A stretch of 64,000 nucleotides of DNA. Origin: Mycobacteriales bacterium (GTDB lineage Bacteria > Actinomycetota > Actinomycetes > Mycobacteriales > SCTD01). A program made the position numbers and the translations under genes. The stretch lies in contig JAUYQP010000028.1 of NCBI GenBank assembly GCA_030697205.1, forward strand, positions 1 to 64,000, in the 5' to 3' direction. Positions 32,371 to 34,188 of this stretch are shown here, one piece after another. Numbering within the stretch: position 1 is the stretch's first letter; every line of letters begins with the position of its first letter. The notes under the pieces were generated by a model that searched no databases, was not told where the DNA came from, and saw nothing but the letters and a program-made list of their open reading frames with translations.

Positions 32371-32880
32371 TCAGACGACTTGGTGCAGCCAGGTCACCGG
32401 AGCGCCCTCGCCGGCCTCGCGGTAGGGCTCGAGCTCGGCGTCCCACGGCCCGCCCAGCAGCGCGTCGAGGCCGTGCGCGAGCTCATGACCTTGGGCGGTC
32501 GCGAGCAGGGTGCGCAGCCGGTCCTCGCCGACGAGCAGGTCGCCGTTGGCGCTCATCGCGGAGCGGTGCGCGCCGAGGGTCGGCGTCACGGCGTAGCGCT
32601 CCCCGTCACACCCGGCGCTCGGCTCCTCGGTGACCTCGTAGCGCAGCGGGTTCCAGCCGCGCAGCGCGCCCGCGAGCCGCGCCGCGGTGCCGGGACGGCC
32701 ACGCCAGCCGGTCTCGGCGCGCAGCAGACCGGGGGCGGCCGGCTGGGCGGTCCAGGACAGCGACACGCGGATCCCGAGCTCGGACGCCACGGCCCACTCG
32801 ACGTGCGGGCACAGCGCCGGCGGGCAGGAGTGCACGTAGAGCACACCTGTCGTCTGGCCAGTCCTCATGCCGATGCTCAT
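32371..32880 (-). CDS. DUF3145 family protein
   Basis: The protein has 169 residues from ATG 32880, with an AGGAGAGG ribosome-binding site eight bases before it. It matches the actinobacterial DUF3145 family throughout: GVLYVHSCPPALCPHVEWAVA, LSWTAQPAAPG, LRGWNPLRYEVTEEPSAG and NGDLLVGEDRLR, ending with WLHQVV. The role is unknown; the conserved CPH and acidic segments suggest a small regulatory or scaffolding protein. It is transcribed leftward away from a long inverted repeat at 33054-33115. Confidence 0.9.
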   Translation of the reverse strand: MSIGMRTGQTTGVLYVHSCPPALCPHVEWAVASELGIRVSLSWTAQPAAPGLLRAETGWRGRPGTAARLAGALRGWNPLRYEVTEEPSAGCDGERYAVTPTLGAHRSAMSANGDLLVGEDRLRTLLATAQGHELAHGLDALLGGPWDAELEPYREAGEGAPVTWLHQVV

Positions 32881-33053
32881 TGCAGGGTCCTCTCCTGAGG
32901 TTCGCCTTCCCCGACGGCCTCACGGATCGACCCGCTGTGGTGATCCTGCCACGCCGAGTGACGTCCCACCAGCACCACCCGCACCAACACCCCCACCGTG
33001 TCGCGCCCGTCAGCGCTCCGCCGGCCCCCAGCCCCCCACCCCACCCACGCCGG

Positions 33054-33115
33054 TGATCATCAGGGGATCTGCACGCGGCTCGCCGGCGTGTCGCGTGCAG
33101 ACCGCCTGATGATCA
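33054..33115. repeat. 62-nt imperfect palindrome in the add-DUF3145 intergenic region
   Basis: Outer arms are TGATCATCAGG (33054-33064) and CCTGATGATCA (33105-33115). Inner arms are TCTGCACGCG (33068-33077) and CGCGTGCAGA (33092-33101). Both pairs are perfect complements, separated by three-base unpaired steps and a 14-base loop that itself contains CGCCGGCG. It starts 45 bases after the add stop. It could end transcription of add, but there is no T-run. A dispersed repeat is also possible. Confidence 0.8.
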
Positions 33116-33159
33116 GGGGCAGGGGGGCAGAGGGGGCAGAGGGGGGCGGGGCGACGAGC

Positions 33160-34188
33160 TCAGGGGTACGCCGAGGCGCGCTCCCAGGTGGCGATGCCGT
33201 CGAGCAAGCGGGTCCGGACGTCGGCCGGGGCCTGCGAGGCGGTCACCGAGCAGCGGGCCAGGTCGGCCAGCTCCGCGACGGTGGCGCCGGCGTCACGGGC
33301 CAGCGCGGCGTACTGCTCGGCGAGCCCGGACCGGAAGACCAGCGGGTCGTCGGCACCGAGCGCCACCGAGACCCCCGCGGCGCGCAGCGCCCGCCAGGGC
33401 GAGGCGGCGACCGACGGCAGCACCCCGAGCGCGACGTTGGACGTCGGGCAGACCTCGCAGACGACCCCGCGGGCGGCGAGCAGCTCGAGCAGCGCCGGGT
33501 CCTCGACGGAGCGCACCCCGTGGCCGAGCCGCACCGCCCCGAGCCGCTCGACGGCGAGCCGCACCGAGCCGGGTCCGCGCAGCTCACCGGCGTGCGGGAC
33601 CGCGACGAGCCCGGCGTCGCGCGCCAGCCGGAACGCCTTCTCGAAGGCGGCCGTGTCACCGCGCGTCTCGTCGTTGGACAGCCCGAACCCGACGACGCCT
33701 GCTCCGGCGTACCTCTTGGCGACCCTGGCCAGGGTCTCCGCCTCCCCCGGGTGACGCGTGCGGTTGGCCGCGACGACAAGCGCCATCCCGACGCCGGTCG
33801 CGGCGGTCGCGTCGGCCATCGCCGACAGGATCACCTCGACGGTGCGGGCGAGGCCACCGAGCCGCGGGGCGTAGGTCGTCGGGTCGACCTGCAGCTCGAC
33901 CCAGCCGGAGCCGGCCGCGGCGTCGTCCTCGGCGATCTCCCGGACCACCCGGCGGACCTCGGTCTCACCGACGAGCAGGTCGCGTGCGGCGTCGTAGAGC
34001 CGCTGGAACTTCAGCCAGCCGCGCAGCACGGTGACGTCGAGGTCGGCGCCTTCGGGGTGGATCAGCCCGGCCGGCAGGGTGCGGCCCTGCTCGGCCGCGA
34101 GCTCGACGAGCGTCGACGGGCGCATGCCACCGGTGAGGTGCAGGTGCAGGTGCGCCTTCGGCAGCGCCACGATGCCCGAGAGGTCCAC
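33160..34188 (-). CDS. add: adenosine deaminase family protein
   Basis: The protein has 342 residues from GTG 34188. It is a TIM-barrel metal hydrolase: zinc ligands H15 and H17 in PKAHLHLHLTGG, later VPHAGELRGP (His and the catalytic Glu), LGHGVRSVEDP, and GADDP with the metal Asp. Classical adenosine deaminases have HLDG where this one has HLTGG, and E is replaced by H13 before the HxH. This is a variant common in actinobacterial members, some of which may use aminodeoxyfutalosine or other adenine-type nucleosides. So deamination of a purine nucleoside is well supported but the exact substrate is not. It is divergent from parE. Confidence 0.85.
   Translation of the reverse strand: MDLSGIVALPKAHLHLHLTGGMRPSTLVELAAEQGRTLPAGLIHPEGADLDVTVLRGWLKFQRLYDAARDLLVGETEVRRVVREIAEDDAAAGSGWVELQVDPTTYAPRLGGLARTVEVILSAMADATAATGVGMALVVAANRTRHPGEAETLARVAKRYAGAGVVGFGLSNDETRGDTAAFEKAFRLARDAGLVAVPHAGELRGPGSVRLAVERLGAVRLGHGVRSVEDPALLELLAARGVVCEVCPTSNVALGVLPSVAASPWRALRAAGVSVALGADDPLVFRSGLAEQYAALARDAGATVAELADLARCSVTASQAPADVRTRLLDGIATWERASAYP

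Follow-up and report, generated by a model that had tools for sequence, protein, structure and literature searches.

Dispersed extragenic palindromes in an actinobacterial genome and their association with a gene for a predicted AbiEi-Vsr fusion protein

What is the long hairpin that lies behind the adenosine deaminase gene of a Mycobacteriales bacterium, and does it belong to that gene, to a repeat family or to an element of another kind? The window analysed here is a stretch of 64,000 nucleotides (contig JAUYQP010000028.1, positions 1 to 64,000), in which an interrupted palindrome of 62 bp occupies positions 33054–33115; in the family consensus, TGATCAnCAGGnGnTCTGCACGnGACnCGCC forms the first arm and a sequence close to its reverse complement the second. 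The left arm is made of an outer box, TGATCATCAGG (33054–33064, plus strand), and a middle box, TCTGCACG (33068–33075, plus strand); a central core follows at 33077–33092, here GGCTCGCC/GGCGTGTC with GACnCGCC/GGCGnGTC as the family consensus, and the right arm brings back the middle box TCTGCACG (33094–33101) and the outer box TGATCATCAGG (33105–33115) on the minus strand. Within the core, GACACGCC is found too in palindromes from other families of the order. The palindrome is intergenic, with the stop codon of add (PF00962; 33160–34188, minus strand) 44 bp away on one side and, on the other, the start of the next gene downstream, encoding a DUF3145 protein (PF11343; 32371–32880, minus strand), at a distance of 173 bp, the order being add–palindrome–DUF3145.

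A first reading, made from sequence alone, had described a long palindrome with short internal bulges in an intergenic region. The palindrome and its setting between add and the DUF3145 gene were confirmed, and RNA folding of positions 33040–33130 gave −63 kcal/mol compared to −39.3 ± 3.8 kcal/mol for shuffled sequences (n = 200; z = −6.3), none of the 200 shuffles being equal in stability. The bulges were wrong in kind: both arms have the same length (31 + 31) and what interrupts them are mismatches, at arm positions 12, 14, 25 and 27. A known RNA family was rejected as an identity for the hairpin, given that a search of positions 32850–33300 against Rfam yielded 13 matches, all under the gathering scores and all to microRNA or snoRNA models. 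As a separate observation on the same intergenic region, a leader GAGGCCGTCGGGGAAGGCGAACCTC (minus-strand reading; 32897–32921) precedes the DUF3145 gene, is conserved with small changes in the five of five relatives with printed sequence (L318, L319, L321, L326 and L328), and could conceivably be a small regulatory stem-loop.

The genome of the window (G000, 4.02 Mb) contains many copies of this palindrome. When it was searched with the arm and TCTGCACGCG, about 35 places were found; a DNA search combined with a covariance model of 29 copies led to a list of 31 places, 30 of them 62 bp long and one of 61 bp. The arm TGATCATCAGG occurs 17 times genome-wide, compared to none for a reversed control pattern. 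Four relatives of 74 bp with a slightly different arm, near TGATCAACAGCACATCTGCACG (this being the arm of the best one), and a longer variable centre were also identified (L092:3001-3074, L122:3001-3074, L123:3001-3074 and L121:3640-3713). Both L092 and L093 had been taken as candidate copies, the former being a 74-bp relative and the latter a single arm only.

The 29 aligned copies share no flanking sequence and have a mean pairwise identity of 0.81. Invariant columns amount to 24 of 62, GATC and CAGG of the outer box TGATCATCAGG being kept in 29/29 copies, and all four letters are present at arm positions 7, 12, 14 and 27. The coexistence of invariant and fully variable columns indicates a constrained motif, not a decaying copy. 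The variable positions look saturated and the copies are not near-identical, unlike what would be expected of recent transpositions. No target-site duplication was apparent either, since a direct repeat of at least 4 nt at the edges was found in 0/29 copies (shuffled flanks average 1.8). The idea of an uptake sequence was discarded as well: 24 of the 26 half-palindrome matches show the fixed spacing of the family and fall inside listed palindromes, and lone half sites are rare.

The conservation of pairing was assayed in this genome and in two related ones with palindromes of their own, G033 and G042. The arms of G000 pair no better than shuffled ones (181 vs. 193.6 ± 6.5), with positions 23 and 27 below expectation, and likewise those of G033 (89 vs. 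97.8 ± 5.3), whereas the arms of G042 covary (159 pairs vs. 123.9 ± 5.5). As the arms of G000 vary independently, pairing alone is not the conserved feature, and a pure RNA structure was rejected as the explanation, the excess pairing being absent in G000 and G033 though present in G042. The trait shared by the three genomes is a pair of similar half sites whose symmetry is broken, by mismatches in G000, by arms that differ by one base in length in most of the 57-bp copies of G042 and by an asymmetric loop in G033. The broken symmetry would be accounted for if long perfect palindromes were avoided, but this is an inference. With about 35 places in the genome, the proposal of the sequence-only reading that the hairpin is a dispersed extragenic repeat is confirmed. 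It had set as its refutation the finding of a single copy without conserved pairing; many copies were found, and the conserved pairing is absent in G000 and G033 and present in G042.

The position of the copies was analysed with respect to genes called by a codon model, not by curated annotation. All 29 copies examined lie outside genes, overlapping a stop codon by 3 bp at most, and their neighbours are convergent in 12 cases, tandem in 14 and divergent in two, the remaining copy being at a contig end. Where a gene ends towards a copy, its stop codon is no more than 90 bp away in 34 of 38 cases (median 39), compared to a median distance of 100 for the start codons that face one. In G033 and G042 the median distance from stop codon to palindrome is 40 and 15 bp, respectively, the G042 copies frequently filling the gap of convergent gene pairs; the asymmetric copies of G033 located in tandem gene pairs are oriented at random with respect to transcription (14 ++, 12 --). 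There is no T-run 3′ of the G000 copies, the flanks of the 29 being C- or G-rich.

Such a map makes it possible that these palindromes are a family of bidirectional terminators, that is, 3′-end hairpins kept alike through gene conversion, with the nuclease link described below being secondary; this explanation may well hold alongside the one that we prefer. With intrinsic terminators the G000 copies share a stable hairpin located past a stop codon. In actinobacteria, hairpin terminators that act in both directions follow stop codons, lie between genes that converge and do without a T-run, and the G000 copies are like them in all these respects. Further support comes from the direct location of most copies after stop codons, from the covarying stems of G042 with their short distance to the stop, from the high stability of the hairpin and from the random orientation in G033. 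Against it stand the lack of a T-run, the pairing not above chance at the variable positions of G000 and G033, which makes primary sequence the conserved feature, and the fact that many nuclease paralogs are bounded on either side by one and the same private palindrome, which a terminator leaves unexplained. Ordinary terminators would not be expected to have a common primary sequence at dozens of loci, nor to lie around a cognate gene.

Beyond G000, the covariance model matched 12 of 60 relatives at E 0.001. The arms are specific to genomes, as exemplified by TGATCAACAGG in G007 and G010, TGATCATGGGG in G042, TGATCATGCGC in G033 and TGATCATGGGGTTG in G176, and despite these different arms GACACGCC is retained centrally or within the loop in many genomes. 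A scan of the order for TGATCA followed by GACACGCC matched 265 of 298 genomes, in which counts of one to three resemble background and the informative ones are the high counts of G042 (123), G033 (45), G099 (32), G263 (31) and G010 (29). A scan of the phylum for TTGATCAT followed by ATGATCAA matched 6 of 396 genomes, at one or two places each and with no sequence in common; as this pattern misses the copies of G000 itself and only 16 of the 396 genomes are of the order, the result carries little weight beyond that version of the arm. In the loci of family f16 (G099 and G176), which we take to be Geodermatophilaceae, many palindromes were seen to have two GACACG copies as a direct repeat, spaced by roughly one helical turn and located inside an asymmetric loop.

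At the add site itself, a clear palindrome that starts no more than 60 bp past the stop codon was detected in 7 of 18 same-family relatives (G003, G007, G009, G010, G016, G018 and G023), the one of G007 being read by eye in the printed sequence, where the script had listed another hairpin. The other 11 showed a weak palindrome (two) or none (nine), counting only relatives with sequence there. Arms resembling those of the G000 family were present only in G007 and G010, and in G009 a GACACGCCGGCGTGTC core lies within different arms. The DUF3145 gene follows the add site in 15 of the 18, and two of the remaining three are cut short. The site is reused by different palindromes across relatives and is empty in others. 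The alternative offered by the first reading, a conserved site at add, held in part, most palindromes of the seven relatives belonging to other sequence types. Three further sites have the same neighbouring genes in at least two genomes, namely L072/L149 (the nuclease site described below), L076/L136 and L293/L139/L131; L080/L140 and L087/L138 have just one neighbour in common, on a different side.

On a contig different from that of the window, two G000 palindromes lie 1.2 kb apart with a single ORF between them (G000:C1, L072:3063-4148, minus strand), encoding a protein of 362 aa that we refer to as the AbiEi-Vsr fusion, and the 3′ palindrome provides the TGA stop codon of this gene. Its relatives in G015 and G033 also adjoin palindromes. 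An HMM built from these three seeds picked up nine ORFs across loci L064 to L364, the seeds themselves among them, and a palindrome was present beside 9/9. In the reverse direction, three loci chosen solely for having two palindromes about 1 kb apart (L347, L348 and L349) all contained the gene, which was absent between the other close pairs of L156, L121 and L307 (0.6–0.9 kb) and of L351 and L352 (about 2.5 kb). Palindromes on both sides of the gene were found in L072, L266, L347, L349, L348, L212, L110 and L149.

The G033 protein matches DUF559 of Pfam (PF04480; 28.7 bits vs. a cut-off of 20.6), and that of G000 matches REase_MTES_1575 (PF18741) with 16 bits, under the cut-off of 38.2. In the AlphaFold model of the L072 protein (pLDDT 80.7), residues 249–357 were aligned by VIA-align with 3hrl (Z 13.0, rmsd 1.7 over 91 residues), I-Bth0305I (3r3p; Z 12.4) and Vsr with DNA (1cw0; Z 10.4), and residues 1–248 with the AbiEi antitoxin 6y8q (Z 9.5, rmsd 5.7 over 178 residues). 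By itself, Foldseek returned nothing at E ≤ 0.001, with I-Bth0305I and 3hrl among the best ranked, and a sequence search for known structures returned 3hrl only (E 3.4e-4). The C-terminal half is thus predicted by the model to adopt a Vsr-type nuclease fold and the N-terminal half an AbiEi-like one, DNA cleavage being inferred. Among the aligned paralogs, the acidic residues E256 and D288 are kept in 62/62 and E299 in 61/62; H306 is kept in 42/62 and D315 in 44/62, the other 20 and 18 paralogs, respectively, having mainly Y and E at these positions. We take the five residues to be the EDxHD motif described for I-Bth0305I. G000 has a further AbiEi-DUF559 paralog (L385/L433, G000:C41:64447-65333), which was seen as two overlapping pieces and is probably broken, and which had no adjacent hairpin that we could find. 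A plasmid search with the G228 protein gave one partial match only.

The association between gene and palindrome was assayed with a profile of the nine ORFs run over 12 genomes, eight picked for their palindromes and four for the flanked gene. Of the 85 matches obtained (1 to 14 per genome), 70 loci were examined, L385 and L433 being the same gene; four further matches were second pieces within examined loci, and 12, all with E 2e-17 or weaker, were left out. Dropping the nine seeds, which had been found via palindromes, and the duplicate left 60 paralog loci. Hairpins on both sides were detected in 17/60 of them compared to 8/212 other genes (Fisher 2.5e-7), and both hairpins were alike in 10/60 compared to 0/212 (Fisher 1.5e-7). 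The control genes came mostly from G000 and G033 loci that contain palindromes (141) and from add loci (43), with only 24 from loci of the order-wide pattern, and were unmatched for length and intergenic size. As both-side hairpins were commoner in the order-wide pattern loci (4/24), which are under-represented, swapping flanks within each genome is the better control. By this assay, the 5′ and 3′ flanks of one gene had a string of at least 15 nt in common in 25/58 paralogs, two loci having flanks too short for the test, compared to 0/312 swaps; the figures for strings of at least 14 nt were 29 vs. 4 swaps and for at least 13 nt 33 vs. 7. No common 15-nt string was present in 33/58 of these non-seed paralogs.

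Of the eight genomes picked for palindromes, six have the flanked gene of the nearest clade (G000, G015, G033, G042, G099 and G176). The other two, G007 and G010, have 30 and 58 R1 matches over both strands, that is, palindromes of this class, but no nuclease gene of the nearest clade was found in them (best E 3.6e-25 and 1.6e-38, in drafts 90 and 84% complete). Possible reasons are the incompleteness of the drafts or palindromes that outlive the gene.

Paralogs of one genome carry differing palindromes, as seen in G033 (L368, L381, L392 and L417) and G151 (L371, L389 and L404). Across genomes, 68 pairs of related proteins (at least 150 bits) had a mean arm similarity of 8.50 compared to 6.45 in permuted pairs, with 0/2000 permutations as high. 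Mean arm similarity was 11.3 above 300 bits, 8.4 between 200 and 300, 7.0 between 150 and 200, and 6.2–6.5 below. Joint change of protein and palindrome is therefore clear only among close proteins, carried by the pairs above 200 bits, and such pairs share ancestry. The GACACG core was also clustered on a tree of 61 proteins made with a quick method (9 changes vs. 15.0 after shuffling; 0/500). The arms that flank the gene recur in dispersed copies, at 50/53 of the loci analysed in G033 and 72/105 of those analysed in G000, many of these loci overlapping; the second and third palindrome types of G033 recur in one and two of the 53 loci. The orientation of the flanking pair, judged by eye, is mixed, alike in L371 and L374 and opposite in L368 and L380. 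These results show the association of the AbiEi-Vsr gene with matching flanking palindromes; that the protein binds, cuts or mobilizes them is inferred.

The explanation that we favour, with a probability of about 0.6, is that the hairpin behind add belongs to a REP-like family served by the AbiEi-Vsr fusion as its cognate protein, and that it is one of the copies without the gene. Our data show that the family is dispersed and located past stop codons, that the gene lies between matching palindromes, that palindromes are paralog-specific and that both change jointly among close relatives; binding, cleavage and movement are inferred. AbiEi antitoxins bind inverted repeats in their promoters (PMC7319586), and the AbiEi-like half would bind the palindrome arms as DNA, either as duplex or as an extruded hairpin. 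The Vsr-like half would nick or cut the palindrome, and repair or transposition would then copy the palindrome, and less often the gene too, into new sites. The lack of target-site duplications would fit repair copying or single-strand transfer better than staggered cut-and-paste insertion. Insertion or survival just past stop codons would produce the observed map, the copies being harmless there or put to use, and they may act as bidirectional 3′-end hairpins at which transcription arriving from either side stops. As for the fixed mismatches and the arms that differ by one base, they may allow the palindrome to be replicated or indicate which strand is to be cut. The mobile hairpin suggested by the sequence-only reading thus remains unproved, and it is made likely by the matched palindromes that flank a nuclease-fold gene.

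A second alternative is a standard REP/BIME family that owes its mobility to a RAYT, a transposase of the Y1/HUH type. In its favour, the architecture is the same as that of REPtrons and TIRtrons (PMC2817692, PMC3733652): dispersed, imperfect, extragenic palindromes of genome-specific types, a gene flanked by two palindromes of its own, and joint evolution of protein and palindrome. However, Y1_Tnp (PF01797) is absent from G000 and from 8/9 other genomes tested, and the flanked gene encodes a Vsr-fold protein, so that we consider this alternative very unlikely. A single Y1_Tnp gene, RAYT or IS200-like, was noted in G033 (L316, G033:C67:37089-37451; E 7.2e-35). The present palindromes also differ from REPs in size (57–74 bp vs. 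20–40 bp), and the mixed orientation differs from that of RAYTs, whose flanking copies are reported to be always inverted; no movement has been shown here. The family is hence not a member of REP/RAYT, as the defining transposase was not found in G000, and its architecture may work like REP/RAYT by analogy only. One large REP class is said to be without a dedicated transposase (PMC3733652).

A third alternative, which we regard as unlikely, is that the palindromes are sites of chromosome organisation or regulation and the AbiEi-Vsr proteins are autoregulated DNA-binding factors without mobility. The strictly conserved length and motif with degenerate positions, the lack of covariation in G000 and G033 and the lack of target-site duplications support it, and AbiEi proteins autoregulate via inverted repeats (PMC7319586). 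Against it, the copies lie mostly after genes and not at promoters, autoregulation requires a 5′ site only and no matching 3′ site, and the acidic residues E256, D288 and E299 are retained.

Returning to the REP-like family with its cognate AbiEi-Vsr fusion, its protein resembles known ones in each half. It is like I-Bth0305I (3r3p) and the DUF559/REase_MTES_1575 proteins (3hrl) in the fold of residues 249–357 and in the conserved acidic residues, MTES_1575 having been named as a Vsr REase (PMC3710099), and unlike them in the fused AbiEi-like half and in its location between palindromes with many gene-less copies elsewhere. It is like the antitoxins of AbiE type IV toxin-antitoxin systems (PMC7319586) in the AbiEi fold of its N-terminal half, of a family that binds inverted repeats, and unlike them in carrying a nuclease-type domain. 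A link of DUF559, MTES_1575 or AbiEi-nuclease fusions with palindromes was not found in the open-access literature searched, subscription papers and preprints being outside its scope, and to our knowledge no nucleases other than RAYT transposases are paired with bacterial palindrome families. The association suggests a small element of a type not recognised so far that spreads within genomes, its mobility being inferred. If so, a second, unrelated fold would be paired with private palindromes and such a lifestyle would have evolved more than once; the AbiEi-DUF559 proteins, several of which may occur in one genome, would gain a testable role, and the palindromes would be ready-made probes, the likely target of each protein being readable from its own flanks.

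A bolder reading, which we hold to be as likely wrong as right, is that each multi-copy AbiEi-DUF559 protein of these actinobacteria is the nuclease of a private palindrome family, REP/RAYT-like and independently arisen on the Vsr/homing-endonuclease fold, which would seed or overwrite palindromes at host 3′ ends, in such a way that orthologous sites, as that after add, differ by genus and match the resident nuclease.

Finally, several copies or half sites of a single palindrome were seen stacked on one side of the gene in L419 (G000:C34), L401 (G228:C20) and L405 (G151:C2), as exemplified by CGTCCTGGCTCACC in L401, an arrangement that recalls the BIME arrays of REP systems.
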